Both the position numbers and the translations under genes were made by a program. The notes under the pieces are model-generated. The model did not search any database and was not told the DNA's origin. It worked only from the letters and a program-made list of their open reading frames with translations. DNA of 64,000 nucleotides from Nitrosomonas sp. GTDB taxonomy: Bacteria > Pseudomonadota > Gammaproteobacteria > Burkholderiales > Nitrosomonadaceae. The first letter of the stretch is position 1. Each line of letters starts with the position of its first letter. Below, piece after piece: positions 18,829 through 39,599 of this stretch. The DNA is taken from NCBI GenBank assembly GCA_024281995.1, contig JAMWZW010000001.1, forward strand, positions 434,001 through 498,000, written 5' to 3'.

Positions 18829-19878
18829 ATGAAGATATTGTTATTTTTTGCCCTAATGTTAAGTTCGTATGCTTTTGCGCAAAGTGGGCATGATCATCAG
18901 AATAAAACACAAAGCAGTGGTGATCACCATAGCGAAATGCATGATGGCGATCATCATGGCGGAGGAATGCATGGTGGTCATCACAAATTAGATAAAGCGA
19001 CATTAAAACACTTTTTCGAACCATTACCGGACTCTATTATCGACGAAACAAAAAATGCAGCATTAATTAAGCTTGGTAAGAAACTGTATTTGGATCCAAT
19101 CCTCTCAGTGAACGATAAAATTTCCTGCAATTCCTGCCACCGTCTGGATAATTTTGGTGTAGATAGCCAAGCAACATCACCCGGACATGAAGGCAAACGT
19201 GGCGGTAGGAATTCTCCAACCACGTTTAATGCGGCTTTACACATCGCCCAATTTTGGGATGGACGTGCAAAAGATGTCGAAGAACAGGCATTGGGGCCAA
19301 TTTTGAATCCCATTGAGATGGGCATGAAAGCTGACACTGACGTTATCGACAAACTGAAAAAAGTGGACGAATATAAAGCAATGTTCGCTGAAGCATTTAA
19401 AGGTGAAAAAGATCCTATTATGTACACTAATGTAGGTAAAGCTATTGGAGCCTTTGAACGTACGCTTCTAACGCCTTCCCGTTTTGATGATTATCTCAAA
19501 GGTGATGAGAAAGCGTTGAACGATGCTGAAAAAAGAGGTTTGCAAAAATTCGTCAACATGGGATGTGCCAATTGTCATAACGGTGTAGCGATAGGCGGTA
19601 ATTCCTACAAAAAAATCGGTTTAGTTGAGCCGTATGAAACCAAAGATATGGGACGCTTTGCGGTAACAGGACTCGAAACTGACAAAAAAGTATTCAAAGT
19701 TCCAAGTCTTAGAAATATTGCTAAAACAGCACCCTATTTTCACGACGGTTCTGTTGCAACCCTAGACGAAGCCATTCGCGAAATGGCAGAACATCAACTG
19801 GGTCGTGAAGTTGGGCCAGGATTTGTTGATGATGTCAAAGCATTTCTGGGATCTTTAACCGGAAAACTTAAAGAGTAG
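18829..19878 (+). CDS. Diheme cytochrome c peroxidase (MauG/CcpA family), His-rich N-terminus
   Basis: 349 residues. Signal peptide (residues 1-17, ending YAFAQ), then an unusual 35-residue linker rich in His/Asp/Gly (HDH, DHH, DGDHHGGGMHGGHH), then the peroxidase: high-spin haem motif CNSCH (100-104), second haem motif CANCH (246-250), NPIEMGM and PYFHDGS. These periplasmic enzymes reduce H2O2 with electrons from small cytochromes. TGGAGG upstream supports the start. A UUCG-loop hairpin follows the stop. The His-rich stretch suggests metal binding. Confidence 0.92.
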   Translation: MKILLFFALMLSSYAFAQSGHDHQNKTQSSGDHHSEMHDGDHHGGGMHGGHHKLDKATLKHFFEPLPDSIIDETKNAALIKLGKKLYLDPILSVNDKISCNSCHRLDNFGVDSQATSPGHEGKRGGRNSPTTFNAALHIAQFWDGRAKDVEEQALGPILNPIEMGMKADTDVIDKLKKVDEYKAMFAEAFKGEKDPIMYTNVGKAIGAFERTLLTPSRFDDYLKGDEKALNDAEKRGLQKFVNMGCANCHNGVAIGGNSYKKIGLVEPYETKDMGRFAVTGLETDKKVFKVPSLRNIAKTAPYFHDGSVATLDEAIREMAEHQLGREVGPGFVDDVKAFLGSLTGKLKE

Positions 19879-30723: not shown

Positions 30724-32544
30724 TTAATTCGAACCAGTTAATTGCCGCAAGTAGTTGCGCCAACCACCAAAATGGCTGACATCCTCTGCATGGAGGATGG
30801 CATAGTGCTCACACAGAAAGCCTTTTACCGTTTCACCGTTTGCCAGCGTAATAGTCCCTATCCCCAATGGAGCCGGAATTTTGGCGGTAAAACTGCCGAA
30901 TTCGCGTTCTGGTAATTCCCAAACTTCCACTTCGATTGCGACGCCTGGTTCGTTTGGGGTGGCACGGATCAAACCGGGCTTTTGCGGCGATTCTCCTGGC
31001 AATGCGTAGAGCCTGTAATCCGCTGACGTGGCCGTGCGAGCTATTAACCGGCCTTGGCGGCTGGTTAATTGTTCATTCAACGGCAAACCGGACAAATGCG
31101 CTCCACACACGGCTATTCGTACCTGACTAGAGCGGGATGCCGCGGGGAAATGGATATTGTGCGGAAACGCAATGCCTGCTGCACCGAGTGGATGTGAATA
31201 GGCTTGTTGCAGCCGGTGCGCAAGATGCAGCAGCGATTCATCCTGATGTGCGGGTGCCGCCAGCGTGATACCAAAAGGCAATCCATCCTGCTGAAAACCC
31301 GCTGGAACCGCAACTGCTGCGTAGTCGAGCAAATTCATGAAATTGGTGTAATACCCTAAGTTGGTGTTCAGACGGATCGGATCCTGCTGTATGGCTTGAA
31401 TGGTATAAATGGTACCGGCGGTCGGTGTCAGCAGGCAATCGATATTCGCCCAGATCCGGTCTGCCTGTTGTTTGAGCTGGCGTAACTGATAGATACCCTC
31501 GAACGCATCTGCTGCCGAACGCTGTTTCGCGGTTGCGATAATTTCACGTACCGGTGCGATGATTTGATCGTTATGCAAGTCATAAAATGACCGGATTGCC
31601 GCATAGCGTTCAGCTATCCACGGACCTTCGTAAAGCAGGCGGGCAGTCTCAACAAACGGCGCAAAGTCTATTTCGACGGCTTCTCCACCCGCTGCTTGCA
31701 TTCGAGCAATGCATTCATAGAATAACCGCTCACTCTCGTGATTATCGAAAAATTTCAGTTGTTGCCGGCGCGGAACGCCAAAACGAAAATGCGGCGCCGC
31801 GCCAAAGTTGAAACCAACTGCTTCTCTTTCCCTGGAATAGCTATCTTGTGCATCATGGGCGGCAGCAATAGTTAAAATATGCGCCGCATCCGCTGCGGTA
31901 TAAGTGAATACGGATAGGGTATCGAGGGAACGGCAGGCTGGCACCACGCCGTGGGCCGAGAACCACCCTTTGGTGGGTTTATAGCCGACCAGGTTATTAA
32001 AAGCAGCCGGCACTCTACCGGAACCTGCAGTATCGGTACCCAGGCTGAAACATACTTGCCCCTTGGCGGCTGCGACTGCCGAACCCGAACTGGAACCGCC
32101 GGAAATATATCCGGGGTTGAAGGCGTTGCGGCACACGCCATAAGGCGACCGCGTGCCATTCAATCCGGTAGCGAATTGATCGAGATTGGTTTTACCGATG
32201 GGAATGGCACCGGCATCAATGAGTCTTTGCACAACCGTGGCGCTAACAGAAGGTATGTAAGCAAAAGCCGGACAAGCTGCCGTAGTCGGTAATGTTGCCA
32301 AATCGATATTATCTTTGATGGCGAAAGGCACGCCATACAGCGGCAACGATGCCATCTCTTGCGCCTCGATATTGCGGGCATAGTTTCGCAACGTTTCCAA
32401 TGGAAGCGTGGAGATCCAGATATGATCCGGGTCATTCTGAATTTCGGCATGAATGGCTTCGACTACTTGAGTTGGTGACCATTCACCGCTTGCGTAGCGT
32501 TGCTGCAACGATGAAATATCGGGTAGCGGAAGAATTTTACGCAT
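30724..32544 (-). CDS. atzF: Allophanate hydrolase (AtzF-type)
   Basis: 606 residues from the ATG at 32544, one base after the carboxylase stop; a longer frame to 32592 would overlap that gene. N-terminal amidase-signature domain with Lys77 (GVPFAIKDNI), the Ser-rich loop GGSSSGSAV (149-157) and nucleophile Ser175 in GTDTAGSGRVPAA; C-terminal small domain from about 470 (VRIAVCGAHLSGLPLN, YALPGESPQKPGLIR) that decarboxylates N-carboxycarbamate. Converts allophanate to ammonia and CO2 in the cytoplasm. Last gene of the riboswitch-controlled operon. Confidence 0.93.
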   Translation of the reverse strand: MRKILPLPDISSLQQRYASGEWSPTQVVEAIHAEIQNDPDHIWISTLPLETLRNYARNIEAQEMASLPLYGVPFAIKDNIDLATLPTTAACPAFAYIPSVSATVVQRLIDAGAIPIGKTNLDQFATGLNGTRSPYGVCRNAFNPGYISGGSSSGSAVAAAKGQVCFSLGTDTAGSGRVPAAFNNLVGYKPTKGWFSAHGVVPACRSLDTLSVFTYTAADAAHILTIAAAHDAQDSYSREREAVGFNFGAAPHFRFGVPRRQQLKFFDNHESERLFYECIARMQAAGGEAVEIDFAPFVETARLLYEGPWIAERYAAIRSFYDLHNDQIIAPVREIIATAKQRSAADAFEGIYQLRQLKQQADRIWANIDCLLTPTAGTIYTIQAIQQDPIRLNTNLGYYTNFMNLLDYAAVAVPAGFQQDGLPFGITLAAPAHQDESLLHLAHRLQQAYSHPLGAAGIAFPHNIHFPAASRSSQVRIAVCGAHLSGLPLNEQLTSRQGRLIARTATSADYRLYALPGESPQKPGLIRATPNEPGVAIEVEVWELPEREFGSFTAKIPAPLGIGTITLANGETVKGFLCEHYAILHAEDVSHFGGWRNYLRQLTGSN

Positions 32545-32545
32545 A

Positions 32546-35500
32546 TCACTGATTTTCCTGAATGATGAAAAGCGCTTGCCCGGCCGACACATACCCGCCT
32601 TGTTTGCAGAATAACTGTTGCACCGTACCGGTAACCGGCGAATCCACCGGAAATTCCATTTTCATCGATTCAATCATGATCACCGGCTTACCAGCTTCCA
32701 CGGATTCACCTTCATTCAACAGTATTTTCCATACCGTGCCCGTAACCTGCGAACTGACAGCTTGGGAGCCTTGCGGTAAATCCAGTTCGCTTTGGCTATC
32801 CGCTTCATCAAGCACATCTTCACTGATATATTGCGATTGACCGTGGGCCTCCCAGCGCCGGCGTTCAGCTTCGAATGCAGCCTGTTGCCGGGTTTTAAAT
32901 GCGTTAATGCTCGAAGCATGTTGCTGCAGGAAAATTTGGTATTGCTTCAAATTCAGAACTGTTTCTTCAGTACGCAACTTGAAGTGCCCGCTAATGAAAT
33001 CCTGGCGCAGCCTGAGCAATTCGCTTTCGCTAACCGGGTAAAAGCGGATCTGATCGAAGAAACGCAATAACCAGGGCTTGCCATCCTTGAAATCGGTTGT
33101 TTGGCGGTACCGATTCCACATTTGCACCGTGCGGCCCACAAACTGATAACCGCCCGGACCTTCCATGCCATACACGCATAAATAGGCGCCACCTATACCG
33201 ACGGCATTTTCAGGCGTCCAGGTACGTGCCGGGTTGTATTTGGTAGTGACCAAGCGATGACGGGGATCCAATGGTGTTGCAACCGGAGCGCCCAGATAAA
33301 CATCGCCCAGCCCCATGACCAGATAACTGGCCGAAAATACACTATGCTGCACGTCCTCAATCGATTCCAGTCCGTTGATGCGGCGGATAAATTCGATATT
33401 GCTCGGACACCAGGGCGCATCGCTGCGCACCGATTGCATATATTTCTCGATCGCCAGTCGCGTAGCAGCATCATCCCAAGAAAGTGGCAAATGAATAATG
33501 CGGGAAGGTACCTCCATGTCGTCGATCGCGGGTAACTGTTTTTCGCCTGCGATCAACATTTCCAGCAATTTTTCGCGCGCCAGTTGGCGCGAATCGAAAT
33601 GAATCTGCAGCGAGCGGACGCCGGGTGTCAGATCCAAAATACCGCTAAGCGCCTGCTTGTCGATGCATTGTTGCAGCCATGACATCAAAGCGTGAGCGCG
33701 GAAACGTAAATTCAGGTCGAGGATGGGCGGACCGTACTCGACCAATAGGTATTTATCGCCGGATTGCCGGTAAGTCACTTGTACGAATGATGCGCTCTCC
33801 GGAATTCGATGCAGAACGGCCGTGCCAGGTTTTCCGGAACGGGAAATTACCGTCGCGCCGGTATCCGCATTAAGCTGCCGGATCAATTGATTTTGCTGTT
33901 GTTCCAGCACCAATGCTTGTTCTAGCGATATCGGGTAAAAGCGAACGCTATCACCGGGTCTGAGTTGTCCGATTTTCCATAATTCTGCCTGCGCAACTGT
34001 GGCCGGACACACGAATCCGCCCAGGCTGGGGCCGTCAGGGCCGAGGATGATTGGCATATCCCCGGTAAAATCAACCGCCCCAATGGCATAAGCATTGTCG
34101 TGAATATTGGACGGATGCAAGCCGGCCTCGCCGCCATCGCTGCGTGCCCATTGCGGCTTGGGCCCGATCAGACGCACGCCGGTGCGGCTGGAATTGTGAT
34201 GCACCTTCCACTCAGCAGTAAAGAATTGTTCGATATCGGCTGCGGTAAAGAAATCCGGCGCGCCATGCGGCCCGTACAAGACGGCAATTTCCCACTGATT
34301 GGTATAACGCGGAATCCGCTGCTGCGGTACTTGCTGCGAATCCGGCTGGGAAGTTGGCAACGGCCGAACATGCAACACATCGCCTGTACGCAGCACACGG
34401 CCTGCATGACCGCCAAACTGTCCGAGCGTGAAGGTGGATTTGCTGTCGAGATAATCGGGCACTTGAAAGCCGCCGTGCACGGCCAAGTAAACCCGGCTGC
34501 CGGCTTGCTGGACTTTGCCGAATTGTAACAATGTGCCAGCCCGGACAAAGTGAGACTGCCATTGCAGTAGCGGTTCGCTGTCCAAAGACACATCAATCGG
34601 CGCGCCACAGATCGCAATAACGCTATCGCAATTGAAGCGCAGCGTCGGACCTGCTAGCGTGATTTCCAATCCGGCGCTATTGTCAGGATTGTTGACTAAA
34701 CGGTTGGCGAGCCGAAAAGCCAGGCTATCCATTGGCCCGGAAGGCGGCACGCCCACATTCCAGTAACCGATCCGCCCAGGATAGTCCTGTATCGTGGTCT
34801 GCACACCGGCAGTCAGGACGTCTAAGCTGTGCGGCTGATAATGAAACCCATTGAGAAATTGCGTGTTTTGCTGTCCGCTACGAAACACTGTGCTGTGCAG
34901 GATTTGCTTGAGATAGTCCAGATTGGTTTCAATGCCATGCAGCGATGTGTCGTCCAATGCGGTCAACAACTTAGCGATAGCGGTTTGCCGATCCGGCGCA
35001 TGCACAATAATTTTGGCCAGCATCGGATCGTAAAACGCGGATACCTCAATACCGCGTTCGACCCAAGTTTCAATCCTTGCGGCATCGGAAAATTCGGCCG
35101 CCGTGAGAATTCCGCTGGAAGGCTGGAAATCTTTGGCAGGATTTTCAGCGTACACCCGCACCTGAATGGAAGCGCCGCTGGGTTTGATCGTAAAAGAATC
35201 GAGAGATGGGAGATCGCCCGCAGCTTGCCGCACCATCCATTCCACCAGATCGATGCCGGTGACTTCCTCTGTTACACCGTGCTCAACTTGCAAGCGGGTA
35301 TTAACCTCAAGAAAATAAAACTGACCGGTAGCGTCGTCAAAAATGTATTCCACCGTGCCCGCAGATTGGTAATTGACGGCTTTGCCTAAGCGCACCGCTG
35401 TGTCCAGCAACGCCTGGCGCAAATGAGGAGCGAGATTGGGAGCAGGCGTTTCCTCGATGACTTTCTGATTGCGCCGCTGCATGGAACAATCACGCTCGCC

Positions 35501-36169
35501 TAGTGCGACGACTTGGCCATTGCCATCACCGAAAATCTGCACTTCAATATGGCGCGCACGATCGACATATTTTTCCAGGAACAACCCGGCATCCTTGAAA
35601 TTGTTTTGTGCCAGTGTTTTGACGGATTCGTAAGCATTCATCAAATCATCCTGGTTCCAGCACAGCCGCATGCCAATTCCGCCCCCGCCCGCTGTGCTTT
35701 TCAGCATTACCGGATAGCCAATGTGCTTGGCTTGATGACAAGCCGCCTCAACATTCTCCAGCAAACCGCTTCCCGGCAAAAGCGGCACTTTATTTTCCAG
35801 CGCCAAAGCGCGTGCCGTGTGCTTTAAGCCAAAGGCGCGCATTTGCTGCGGAGCAGGACCGATGAAACAGATGCCATGAAGAGCGCATTGCTCGGCAAAA
35901 TCGGCTTTCTCACTGAGAAAACCATAACCGGGATGAATAGCCTGCGCACCGCTTTGCCGGGCAACCTCCAGGATTTTATCGGTACGCAAATAACTCTCTG
36001 CAGCAAGCCCGCTGCCAATACAATAGGCTTCATCGGCTTCGGTGACATGCCGCGATAACACATCGGCCTCGGTATAGACCGCTACACTTTTGACATGCAT
36101 GTGGCGCAGGGTGCGGATAATCCGGCACGCGATAGCGCCGCGATTGGCAATCAGGACTTTGTCGAACAT
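32546..36169 (-). CDS. Biotin-dependent urea/guanidine carboxylase
   Basis: 1207 residues. Biotin carboxylase domain (1-450: [38 protein letters not shown]), carboxyltransferase made of AHS2 (about 460-755, [20 protein letters not shown]) and AHS1 (about 795-1000), and a C-terminal biotinyl domain with IESMKMEFP, biotin Lys1170. Annotated generally as urea carboxylase, but with an upstream guanidine-I riboswitch and two DUF1989 partners the preferred substrate is probably guanidine, giving carboxyguanidine; urea carboxylation to allophanate remains possible. ATP and bicarbonate dependent, cytoplasmic. Needs biotin ligase from elsewhere. Confidence 0.92.
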   Translation of the reverse strand: [1207 protein letters not shown]

Positions 36170-36231
36170 GGCATTACCCCCTTGTTGGATAAATGGTCAA
36201 CCGGATGTTATGGCTCAGCGCGTTGCCATAA

Positions 36232-36894
36232 CTAGGCATCCCAGACCAGCAAACGGATCGGCGTCGGGTTATACGCGTTACATGGGTTGTTGAGTTGCGG
36301 GCAGTTGGAAATCAATACGAATACATCCATTTCCGCGCGCATTTCGACATACTTCCCTGGCGCTGAGATACCATCGACAAACTCCAATCCGCCCTCTTCA
36401 GTCACAGGAACATTCATAAAAAAATTGATGTTACTGGGAATATCGCGCTTGCTCATGCCTAATTGTTCACAAGCGGTGTCATGCGCCAGGGCGTGCAAAA
36501 AATTGTCGCGACAACTGTGCATCGGATATTTTTCCAGCGCATAACGAACCGTGTTACTTTCCGCCGCACAGGCCCCGCCCAATGTGTCATGACGCCCACA
36601 GGTATCCGCTACGATTGTGAGCATGGTGTTGCCAAAATTGGAGCACAGCTTGCTGCCGGTAGTCAAATACAGCTTATTTTGAGCACGAATAGTATCCGTT
36701 GCGCTATAGCGTTCCAATGCATGGTTGGCATTGAAAAACAATGTATCAACGGCTTGATTACCTTCCAGGTCGACGATACGGAAAAATTGCCCCTGTTTGA
36801 CAATCTTGGTCCAAGGCTCACCGGCGGCGCAAATTTCATTCACGATTGCCTGGTTGGGATCAAGCTGGCTTGTTTGGAGATTAAACGTATTCAT
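36232..36894 (-). CDS. Carboxyguanidine deiminase subunit (urea carboxylase-associated protein 2, DUF1989)
   Basis: 220 residues, DUF1989 family. Features: [60 protein letters not shown], and [20 protein letters not shown] with conserved Cys/His in the core, plus a C-terminal [20 protein letters not shown]. Together with the next gene it forms the heteromeric enzyme (CgdAB in characterised systems) that removes the imino group of carboxyguanidine to give allophanate and ammonia. The ATG overlaps the stop of the upstream subunit (4 bp), so the two are translationally coupled. Confidence 0.85.
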
Positions 36895-37616
36895 AGCGTA
36901 CCCTCACAATAGAAATGTTTGGCATTTTGTAATGCGCGAATATTCTCGGCGATATGCAGGCATTCGTTAGCGGCTTCAGCGGGTGTATCGAACAGTTCTA
37001 AAGTGACTGCACCGGGCTGATAAGACTGACTCGGATCTAAAGGATGAGGAGCCGCAGACAGTACCAGCAACGTATCCATCACGAAACTCAAGTCGATATA
37101 ATCGCCGGCTTTGCTGTGATCAGGATGAAATGTCAATTCTCCAGCGCTATTGGCGGTTACTTTGCTGAAAAAATTGATATTCGAAACGATATCGCGCATC
37201 CCCAATCCCCACTTGCCCAGTTCTATCAACATGCCATCCAAGCCGCTGCGAAACATTTGATTACGATGTTCCTGATAGCGTGCAGTGCCGTATTTCTGCT
37301 GAATTATGTGACTGTCACTCAAGCCGCAAACAGTATCGTTCCAGCCGGCTGTATCTGCCGTGATGCAACAGAAAATTCGCCCCATATCCGAATGGCAAGC
37401 GTGTCCTTTGGTCAGGCGGAAAGTATGTTGAGATTTTAAAGTATCCGCCATATTGTAACGCTCGAGCTTTTCTTCCTGATTAAAAAGCAGTACAGCGGCA
37501 TTGGCTCCCCCATCGGCATCAATTAGACGTAGTGTAGTGCCACGCCGGATAATACCGGACCAATGGCATCCTCCCGGGATGGATTGTTTCCAGATTAATG
37601 TATGTTGCTGATTCAT
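36891..37616 (-). CDS. Carboxyguanidine deiminase subunit (urea carboxylase-associated protein 1, DUF1989)
   Basis: 241 residues, the longer DUF1989 paralogue: [59 protein letters not shown] and [20 protein letters not shown], aligned throughout with its neighbour. Both have the Cys/His metal-type residues of the family. It follows the permease after 12 bp. Which of the pair is CgdA or CgdB I cannot fix from sequence alone, so no symbol is given. Confidence 0.85.
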
Positions 37617-37628
37617 GATGAATTCCTT

Positions 37629-39074
37629 TTATGAAAGTTTCTTACCGCCGAACCATTTCTTGTAAAGAATATACAAGGTTGTGATAGTTAGAATGCTGCC
37701 CAATACCAGCGGGGTTGCCCATAATTGCCACCAAGGCGCATCAGCCGAGATGGCATAAGGGCGCGGCCAGGCAATATTGATGACTTCAAACAATGACCAC
37801 ATGAACGCTAAGATATTGATGATCAATCCCCATTTACCCAGCTTTAATTCTCCGAGTTGAGGATCCCATCGGCCAGTGAGCCGGGCAACTAATGCAAACC
37901 CGGTCGTGAAGGTGAACATGGCATATAAACCGCCGGTACCGAAAGCGATAATTGTAGCCACGGCATCGTCATTAAGTCCGAAGATCAATCCGCAACCTGC
38001 CAACAAAACGGTAAAAATCACTGCATTGCGTGGCGTTTTGCTAACTGTCACCCGGCTCAGTATTGCTGGCATATTGCCCTCCCGTGCCATCGAATATACG
38101 ATACGGGATGTGTATTTCACCATTGATGCGCCGCAGGCCAGAAAAGCAGTCATTACGATTGCTAAAAAGGGTTTCTCAAACCATTCTCCAATGCTACTGG
38201 CGATCAAAGGCGTGACCGGATCGGATGTATGACTGGAGTGCCTTAACGTGTCATGTTCAAAAGCCAGAATCAATGCTGCTGAGTTGAATAAAACTACCGT
38301 GCCGACAAGCAGTAGCGACATAAAAATTGCCCGAGGTACCATGCGCTTGGGTTGATGGGTTTCTTCAGCGGTGGTGGAGCAGGCATCAAAGCCGATAAAA
38401 GCCCAGCCTGAAATGGCCAATGCCGCCAGAAAAGCAGCCATTTCACTGGGTGCGGTGCCCGTACCCATATGCTGGAATAATTCCATGAACGGATGCTGGC
38501 GGAAGAAAAAGAATAGGAGCAATGCAACGCCGAAAGATCCGACGACTTCAGCGTAGACCCCCAATTTGATTATCAGATTGAAAATGCTGACGGGCGCCAG
38601 GTTGAGCAGTGTGCAGAGCAGAAGGAATAAAGCGGCCCATAGCACCATTACTTCACCGCCATTATCCGACACCCCACAGAAGGTTGCCAGCCAAAAACCG
38701 CCGGTATAGGCGGTGGTGGTGACCATGGCAATGGTGGAACAAATATAAATCACACCCGCATAGTTTCCGGCGATGGCGCCGCCGAGCTGCCGAGCCCATT
38801 TATAGGCACCGCCCGCAATCGGAAACTGCGAAGACAATTCTGCATAAACCGTAGCCACCAACAGTTGCATGAGCAAGCAGACCGCCAATGCGGCAAACCA
38901 ACCGCCACCGGCAACTACCGTTTGTACACCGATGATGGCATAGAGCCCGGCGACCGGTGAGACGACCGCAAAACCCAGCGTAAAACTGTGCCATACGCTC
39001 ATGCTGCGATTGAGCATATCACCAGTTCCATGGGTATCTTGCGAGGAAGCTGTTTGTTTTGTTGAACCTGACAT
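37629..39074 (-). CDS. APC-superfamily permease, probable guanidine/urea importer
   Basis: 481 residues with about twelve TM segments: SFTLGFAVVSPVAGLYAIIG in TM1, VYAELSSQFPIAGGAYKWAR, and GWAFIGFDACSTTAEETHQP in the TM6 region, all typical of APC amino-acid/amine permeases. First gene of the five-gene operon and directly behind the guanidine-I riboswitch, so guanidine uptake is the best guess. GGAGA lies 6 bp before the ATG. Inner membrane. Confidence 0.87.
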   Translation of the reverse strand: MSGSTKQTASSQDTHGTGDMLNRSMSVWHSFTLGFAVVSPVAGLYAIIGVQTVVAGGGWFAALAVCLLMQLLVATVYAELSSQFPIAGGAYKWARQLGGAIAGNYAGVIYICSTIAMVTTTAYTGGFWLATFCGVSDNGGEVMVLWAALFLLLCTLLNLAPVSIFNLIIKLGVYAEVVGSFGVALLLFFFFRQHPFMELFQHMGTGTAPSEMAAFLAALAISGWAFIGFDACSTTAEETHQPKRMVPRAIFMSLLLVGTVVLFNSAALILAFEHDTLRHSSHTSDPVTPLIASSIGEWFEKPFLAIVMTAFLACGASMVKYTSRIVYSMAREGNMPAILSRVTVSKTPRNAVIFTVLLAGCGLIFGLNDDAVATIIAFGTGGLYAMFTFTTGFALVARLTGRWDPQLGELKLGKWGLIINILAFMWSLFEVINIAWPRPYAISADAPWWQLWATPLVLGSILTITTLYILYKKWFGGKKLS

Positions 39075-39109
39075 AACAAGTCTCCATACAAAAAAGGATT
39101 TACCGAGAT

Positions 39110-39133
39110 TGTAATGTACCTCAGTACATTACA
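39110..39133 (-). terminator. Hairpin in the riboswitch expression region
   Basis: TGTAATGTAC-CTCA-GTACATTACA, a perfect 10-bp stem, lies between the aptamer and the permease start. Read on the minus strand it is followed by a U-run only some 18 nt later, so it may be an attenuator or a translation-control helix. Confidence 0.5.
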
Positions 39134-39137
39134 CCTT

Positions 39138-39240
39138 AACCTCCCGGGCTTTTTTCCCTCCGTGGAGCCTCGTTATCACGAGACCGGAAACTCTTGGACC
39201 TGACGCCGTTTTGCTTTAGACCGGAACCCTAGTTTCCCAT
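39138..39240 (-). promoter_or_regulatory. Guanidine-I riboswitch (ykkC class)
   Basis: Read on the minus strand the leader contains the conserved ykkC blocks in order: ACTAGGGTTCCGG (39221-39233), GGTCCAAGAG (39191-39200), CCACGGAGGGA (39154-39164) and AAAAAGCCCGGGAGG (39139-39153). These form the guanidinium-binding core. It precedes the permease start by about 65 nt, with a strong hairpin between. Class I guanidine riboswitches switch genes on when guanidine is present and commonly control carboxylase and transporter genes, exactly the cargo here. Confidence 0.93.
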
Positions 39241-39599
39241 TGATTAACTACTATTTACTACTTCCTTAGCTGCTATTCCAGCAATCGTTCAATTGGCATA
39301 CGTAGAAAGCCAATAACGAATGGGATTCTAATTGTGTAGTTTGGAAAAAGCAATGGTTTAGGAGATTACTCTATTGCATGATGTTTTGATAAGTAAATAG
39401 CAAAACATAATCTCAAAGTCGCTACAAAACTTAACTCATATCAGCGCTAATTTTGATCTTTGGGTCAGATTCAGATTTACCTATACATCGTTTCCACTTA
39501 TACGATTGTAGAGTATTATAAAAGAGTAACTCTGATGGAAAGGAAAAAGAGGTGCTATTATTTCTTGTAGTGCCAAATCTTTATGAGGAGAGTGTAATT
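39241..39599. other. Divergent promoter region, 359 bp
   Basis: Contains the unmapped promoter of the guanidine operon (minus) and of the secreted orphan (plus). AT-rich, no gene. TTTTGATCTTTGGGTCAGATT near 39452 and TATTATAAAAGAG near 39515 stand out only as AT-rich signals; I cannot assign a -10/-35 pair with confidence. Confidence 0.3.

Follow-up and report, generated by a model that had tools for sequence, protein, structure and literature searches.

Guanidine degradation in betaproteobacterial ammonia-oxidising bacteria (AOB) is the described system closest to the locus considered here. According to PMC11410670, guanidine genes occur in 135 of 145 betaproteobacterial AOB genomes, which carry the carboxylase route only. 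The pathway, as in Nitrosospira multiformis and Nitrosomonas communis, comprises a guanidine-I riboswitch, an APC-superfamily permease (found near the guanidine genes in most ammonia oxidisers having them), a carboxylase with two signature aspartates (D/D), two deiminase subunits and allophanate hydrolase (AH), with no guanidinase. The operons of enterobacteria and Pseudomonas are like it in enzymes and riboswitch control but possess an ABC importer in place of the APC permease, and in enterobacteria the carboxylase and AH genes lie behind a guanidine-II riboswitch (PMC12186494, PMC11410670). The comammox bacterium Nitrospira inopinata combines a guanidine-I riboswitch and an APC permease with an ATP-free Ni guanidinase and urease (PMC11410670). 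The locus of the present study is a guanidine-I riboswitch and five genes in a stretch of 64,000 nucleotides, called the window, from Nitrosomonas sp. (assembly GCA_024281995.1, contig JAMWZW010000001.1, positions 434,001 to 498,000; G000:C1:434001-498000 in the numbering used here, with the window's locus as L001).

The riboswitch is followed on the same strand by genes for the permease, two DUF1989 deiminase-type proteins, a biotin carboxylase and AH (Table 1). No essential difference from the AOB pathway of PMC11410670, as far as it is described there, was found, and the window adds a further Nitrosomonas genome to it. The operon and pathway are real and complete, and of an already published kind; PMC11410670 describes this proposal for AOB. 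The locus is almost certainly a guanidine-inducible operon of an ammonia-oxidising Nitrosomonas, where the riboswitch match, gene order, protein families, signature residues and nitrifier genes come from this analysis, and the ligand, enzyme activities and pathway from the literature on other strains.

Table 1. Features of the guanidine operon and its leader in the window, with loci of a related gene in other genomes
Feature	Position	Strand	Evidence or remark
Guanidine-I (ykkC subtype 1) riboswitch aptamer	39139-39243	-	RF00442, full model 1-107
Proposed strand masking the ribosome-binding site: AUAACGAGGCUCCA, 3' side of the second large hairpin in the aptamer	39163-39176	-	Complementary to 39073-39086; co-varying across leaders
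Proposed target of that strand (UGGAGACUUGUUAU)	39073-39086	-	Spans the Shine-Dalgarno GGAG (39082-39085) and positions 1 and 2 of the permease start codon
Alternative stem	39103-39147	-	Aptamer 3' end CCGGGA 39142-39147 with UCUCGG 39103-39108, around hairpin 39111-39132
U6 run	39090-39095	-	7 bases beyond the alternative stem
APC-superfamily permease, presumed guanidine importer	37629-39074	-	PF13520
DUF1989 protein, UAAP1 type, taken as CgdB-like carboxyguanidine deiminase subunit	36891-37616	-	TIGR03425, 321.4 bits (cut-off 205.95)
DUF1989 protein, UAAP2 type, taken as CgdA-like subunit	36232-36894	-	TIGR03424, 345.2 bits (cut-off 284.7)
Guanidine carboxylase (very probable), 1207 aa	32546-36169	-	TIGR02712, 1961.8 bits (cut-off 1303.85)
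Allophanate hydrolase	30724-32592	-	Likely start 32544; TIGR02713, 814 bits (cut-off 511.05); PRK08186, 862 bits; AH_C PF21986
Carboxyltransferase gene without biotin-carboxylase domain, other genomes	L127-L132, L134 (G014, G016, G033, G099, G102, G112, G049), L033, L034		

Curated NCBIfam cut-offs were passed by the carboxylase, both DUF1989 proteins and AH. The carboxylase is a single chain with biotin carboxylase, carboxyltransferase and biotin carrier domains in the order of TIGR02712 (Pfam Biotin_carb_N/C, CT_A_B, CT_C_D and Biotin_lipoyl) and a biotin site ESMKME at K1170, and AH bears the C-terminal AH_C domain. The DUF1989 proteins are two subunits of differing type, one matching TIGR03424 and the other TIGR03425, as expected of CgdAB. 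It is assumed here that UAAP1 corresponds to CgdB and UAAP2 to CgdA. In PMC11410670 these subunits are recognised by their clade in the PF09347 tree. The permease reached just 164 of the 740 bits required by TIGR03428 ('permease, urea carboxylase system'), and its presumed role as a guanidine importer is drawn from PMC11410670. The junctions measure, in order, 12 nt, a 4-nt overlap, 62 nt and 1 nt, the last with the likelier AH start. As called, the AH open reading frame (ORF) overlaps that of the carboxylase by 47 nt. Because PRK08186 aligns from residue 25 and TIGR02713 from residue 57, Met17 at 32544, 1 nt past the carboxylase stop, seems the likelier start.

The aptamer matches RF00442 over the full length of the model with 83.8 bits, against a gathering score of 63 (cmscan, E 1.8e-13 for the whole window). 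It is the only copy in the genome, guanidine-I having been searched genome-wide and guanidine-II to -IV within the window. Since no further Rfam family appeared at E<=1 in 39040-39300 and the downstream genes are guanidine genes, the element is classed as guanidine-I and not as a ppGpp-, PRPP- or NDP-type ykkC variant, judged by Rfam families and gene content alone. The operon is probably switched on by this guanidine-sensing RNA, with the ligand taken from work on other strains.

The substrate of the carboxylase deserves separate consideration. The NCBIfam names, 'urea carboxylase' for the enzyme and 'urea amidolyase associated' for the DUF1989 proteins, favour an operon of the urea amidolyase type, with a carboxylase acting on urea and with riboswitch and DUF1989 genes present by coincidence. 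In PMC11410670, an Asp at position 1584 (K. lactis numbering) is required, and an Asp at 1330 parts guanidine from urea carboxylases. In an alignment to K. lactis urea amidolyase (5I8I), used in place of a tree with characterised urea and guanidine carboxylases, the window's carboxylase has D700 opposite N1330 and D956 opposite D1584, and thus carries the D/D signature of guanidine carboxylases. The same signature was found in 59 related loci (L005-L063), with D at every column read (at 700 only in L058 and L060); in L064 and the distant L065-L084 the signature columns were unreadable. The yeast enzyme (5I8I/3VA7) has the same carboxylase domains, but its full-length chain also contains the allophanate hydrolase, which is a separate protein in the window. 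By the published criterion, the enzyme is very probably a guanidine carboxylase. Besides the D opposite N1330, the guanidine-I riboswitch, two deiminase-family genes superfluous for a urea route and a separate urease in the same genome speak against a urea substrate; the D/D signature together with the riboswitch led to rejection of the urea amidolyase reading, which appears very improbable. Nitrosomonas sp. Is79 has a 'urea carboxylase' and AH, no urease, and formed no nitrite from urea (an unpublished note of the authors in PMC3764937), which fits guanidine, not urea, as the substrate. In the related genome G052, the first member of the five gene families to follow a guanidine-I riboswitch (L116, G052:C1:1990097-1990202) is AH; it comes after a 69-codon leader ORF and lies about 100 kb from that genome's carboxylase. 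This ties AH to guanidine independently.

The original prediction, made from the sequence alone, had proposed four ykkC blocks at 39138-39240 ahead of these five genes on one strand with short or overlapping junctions, a complete pathway gene set and a carboxylase of the guanidine rather than the urea type. The covariance-model search against the guanidine-I family that it called for was positive, its coordinates are right to within a few bases, the gene coordinates and family matches reproduce the order, strand, junctions and gene set, and the signature residues bear out the substrate type. Judged by sequence, a gene annotated as urea carboxylase in nitrifiers is very probably a guanidine carboxylase, which bears on models of the nitrogen compounds feeding nitrification.

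The host genome (2.88 Mb, 97.57% complete) contains an intact amoC-amoA-amoB set in L002, recognised by PF02461 above cut-off, with amoC and amoB named by eye and by order. Against three ammonia monooxygenase structures AmoA scored 542-585 bits, against methane monooxygenases no more than 289.4. The genome's only PF13447 matches, of the hydroxylamine oxidoreductase (HAO) type and above cut-off, are three adjoining pieces at G000:C1:712223-712990, suggestive of a single gene broken across frames. With amoCAB and HAO, the latter in these three pieces, the host has the gene complement of a betaproteobacterial ammonia oxidiser. The window's carboxylase shares 95% identity with the enzyme of an uncultured Nitrosomonas sp. 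metagenome-assembled genome (MAG; RBC022). Urease alpha occurs as a single copy. PF00491 (ureohydrolase/guanidinase), matched in nine of 14 control genomes, has no match in the genome, so that a guanidinase route of the ureohydrolase family, as used by N. inopinata, was not found; this agrees with the carboxylase-only pattern reported in PMC11410670. A second amoCAB copy (L003/L004, G000:C21:56648-57357) has broken amoA and amoB frames, by decay or assembly error.

The proposed pathway would begin with guanidinium binding the aptamer and turning expression on. Guanidine imported by the permease would be carboxylated at the cost of one ATP, the carboxyguanidine deiminated by the DUF1989 pair to allophanate and ammonia, and the allophanate hydrolysed to two further ammonia. 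The three ammonia per guanidine would enter assimilation or ammonia oxidation, beside free ammonium. It is inferred that the permease imports guanidine and that its use as an energy source is supplementary rather than sole. Two points weigh against this reading: the enzyme roles and growth use in this organism are known from genes alone, and AH appears dispensable in such operons. The latter follows from a survey of 125 genomes of the family, own genome included and filtered by completeness, not contamination: AH above cut-off is absent from 46 of the 92 carboxylase genomes at least 90% complete, and 20 of the 92 lack urease as well. AH was counted as a TIGR02713 match above cut-off, which places G012, whose AH is split in two, and G123, with a partial AH where a contig ends, among the genomes without it.

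Placing the operon in a nitrifier, as originally predicted, is supported by amoCAB, the ammonia monooxygenase-type AmoA and the HAO-type matches; the accompanying proposal that guanidine is an energy substrate is not supported as stated. A complete route to three ammonia beside amoCAB would suit guanidine as the sole energy and nitrogen source, as in comammox Nitrospira, but guanidine alone was not used by any of five AOB strains with the carboxylase-route set, four with urease and one without, and the partial conversion seen in three of them occurred only in the presence of ammonium (PMC11410670). These strains weaken the energy inference. The carboxylase route moreover costs ATP, and use as a sole source is improbable. 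A detoxification operon, which keeps guanidine low with ammonia as a by-product, draws some support from the frequent absence of AH and urease, as if full nitrogen recovery were optional, and from the inhibition of N. europaea said to occur at 1 mM guanidine (cited in PMC11410670). Against it stand the first gene of the operon, a predicted guanidine-importing permease, the whole route to ammonia in the window, and the position of the genome's sole SMR-family gene, a possible exporter, outside the window and the operon, the only guanidine-I match in the genome being the window's, with guanidine-II to -IV searched within the window. Detoxification as the main role is thus judged rather unlikely. 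Related reports mention little or no detectable urea carboxylase in three AOB proteomes from growth without urea (PMC5960693) and no guanidine genes in a set of floodplain nitrifier MAGs (PMC12625717).

The mode of action of the switch was compared across leaders. In guanidine-II and -III riboswitches, guanidine opens the Shine-Dalgarno sequence (PMC12186494). The same is proposed for the window, where the aptamer is of another kind, RF00442. When guanidine is absent, the Shine-Dalgarno sequence and start codon would be paired with the 3' side of a hairpin in the aptamer (in the window, -14.6 kcal/mol for the duplex of 39163-39176 with 39073-39086); guanidine would lock the hairpin and set both free. 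Of 74 distinct motif hits in the fetched loci, 72 leaders with a Shine-Dalgarno sequence and a start codon, chosen by pattern and not by translation evidence, were kept; L138 and the minus strand of L128 gave no start by pattern, the L138 hit resembling a chance match in coding sequence. The hairpin 3' strand is typically ATAACGARGCTCC and the start region GGAGACTTCGTTATG, its near complement. Over the 72 leaders the best 8-base match averaged 7.13/8 within a leader, 6.63 (sd 0.06) when strands were swapped between loci, with none of 5000 swaps as high, and 4.83 with letters shuffled. When the pairing was anchored at the start codon (69 leaders, the window among them, L047-L049 excluded), it averaged 7.09/8 against 6.68 (sd 0.045) for swaps, a value that none of 10,000 swaps reached. 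The difference kept its sign with unique rows (6.73/8 against 6.25, again reached by 0 of 10,000); these cross-locus permutations are uncorrected for kinship. Sliding the anchored pairing by one to three bases lowered it to 2.4-3.8 (+2 and +3 on five leaders only). Co-variation was seen in 45 unique leaders: pair 3 is A-T in 20 and G-C in 11, pair 8 is G-C in 21 and A-T in 10, and pair 5 is C-G in 35 and T-A in two.

A simple terminator switch acting on transcription, the usual description of this class, would use the alternative stem and the U6 run behind it, and the review PMC12186494 presents guanidine-I as usually a transcriptional ON switch. A duplex of CCGGGAG with downstream sequence at -6 kcal/mol or below exists in 70 of the 72 leaders, a count that would skip leaders without the exact CCGGGAG. 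But a run of at least five T between aptamer and Shine-Dalgarno is absent from 54 of 72 leaders (the 18 that have it include the window, and some of these runs lie, by eye, in hairpin loops), the U run of the window begins 7 bases past the stem, and the complementarity to the ribosome-binding site is conserved and co-varying. A terminator switch is judged the less likely mode, with perhaps something under a one-in-three standing in our judgement.

It seems on balance likely that the switch of the window acts mainly by hiding and freeing the ribosome-binding site of the permease. The broader claim, that in Nitrosomonadaceae guanidine-I, a class usually described as transcriptional, has been rebuilt as a translational switch, is more tentative and falls somewhat short of an even chance. 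Several observations weigh against translational control. Folding in ViennaRNA with and without the enforced consensus aptamer gave no clear difference (Shine-Dalgarno mean unpaired 0.44 free and 0.41 aptamer-forced, or 0.20 and 0.28, by folded length), for which reason the translational claim is carried by the comparison of leaders alone. The U6 run of the window could be used by a terminator. In the free test the pairing comes to 5, 4 and 6 of 8 for L047-L049 (from Gallionella, Sideroxydans and a gammaproteobacterial MAG), and to 3-4 of 8 for L099, L100, L134 and L034, permease-side leaders of the group with the shortened carboxyltransferase gene described below. In addition to the review, PMC11410670 calls guanidine-I a transcriptional suppressor.

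The start codon belongs to the permease in 35 of the 72 leaders, including the window, and to a separate ORF in 33; four fit neither pattern. The separate leader ORF has 14-90 codons and lies 57-306 bases ahead of the first guanidine gene (e.g., L012 2838, L122 1673, L131 3633). This suggests that guanidine-dependent translation of the leader may shield a long untranslated stretch from Rho. In the paper titles and abstract openings that were listed, no translational guanidine-I switch in ammonia oxidisers appears; the comparison of leaders makes the mode of action of guanidine-I in these bacteria a testable question.

Across the 125 genomes the guanidine-I riboswitch was found in 101, TIGR02712 above cut-off in 106, DUF1989 in 101, AH above cut-off in 51 and urease in 75. 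No gene replacing AH was common to all 23 loci picked for its absence, and the fate of allophanate in the many ammonia oxidisers with a carboxylase and no recognisable AH becomes a testable question. One candidate, present in at least 13 genomes (seven of genus g1, six of g3), is a second gene of about 760-810 codons whose product aligns with TIGR02712 over the carboxyltransferase and biotin-carrier region alone. This count is a lower bound: partial matches at contig ends in G108 and G124 were left unclassed. L059 and L061 were kept out of this group as their biotin-carboxylase part is cut. Nine such sequences form one clade in a quick tree (SH-aLRT 100); both Asp residues are present in 9/9 and the biotin site in 7/9, all rows that reach it. 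In all seven fetched loci where the riboswitch, permease and DUF1989 pair were looked for (L127-L132, L134), the gene lies behind them.

None of the 13 listed genomes has AH above cut-off. Among genomes at least 90% complete, AH is missing in g3 from 6/6 with the shortened gene and 0/16 without, and in g1 from 6/6 with it and 32/62 without (Fisher p 0.03), counts that are uncorrected for kinship. Simple mutual exclusion of this gene and AH was rejected: it is clear in g3 and weaker in g1, where those 32 of 62 have neither. The protein might be a guanidine-allophanate transcarboxylase, or an extra carboxyltransferase served by the full-length enzyme. That it stands in for AH in some species, passing the carboxyl from allophanate to guanidine and making guanidine deimination nearly ATP-free, is a speculative and rather improbable idea. 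Nothing on this protein appeared in the literature searched by titles and abstract openings.

Some of the 23 loci picked for absence of AH show neighbours of their own. An isochorismatase-family gene adjoins the full-length carboxylase in L130 and L131, and what is taken here, by eye, to be a methyltransferase-like ORF occurs in L042, L044 and L057. Permease and carboxylase adjoin in L027, L030, L043, L045, L137 and L138 with no DUF1989 genes beside them. In genus g4, DUF1989 had no match in G116, G117, G118 and G120 and a match in G119. In the tree, the carboxylases of two MAGs labelled Nitrospira sp. (L026, L029) fall together with Nitrosomonadaceae sequences, which suggests either transfer or misbinning. 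Elsewhere in the window, positions 18829-19878 hold a gene for a MauG/MbnH-like di-heme enzyme, with scores under the curated cut-offs.

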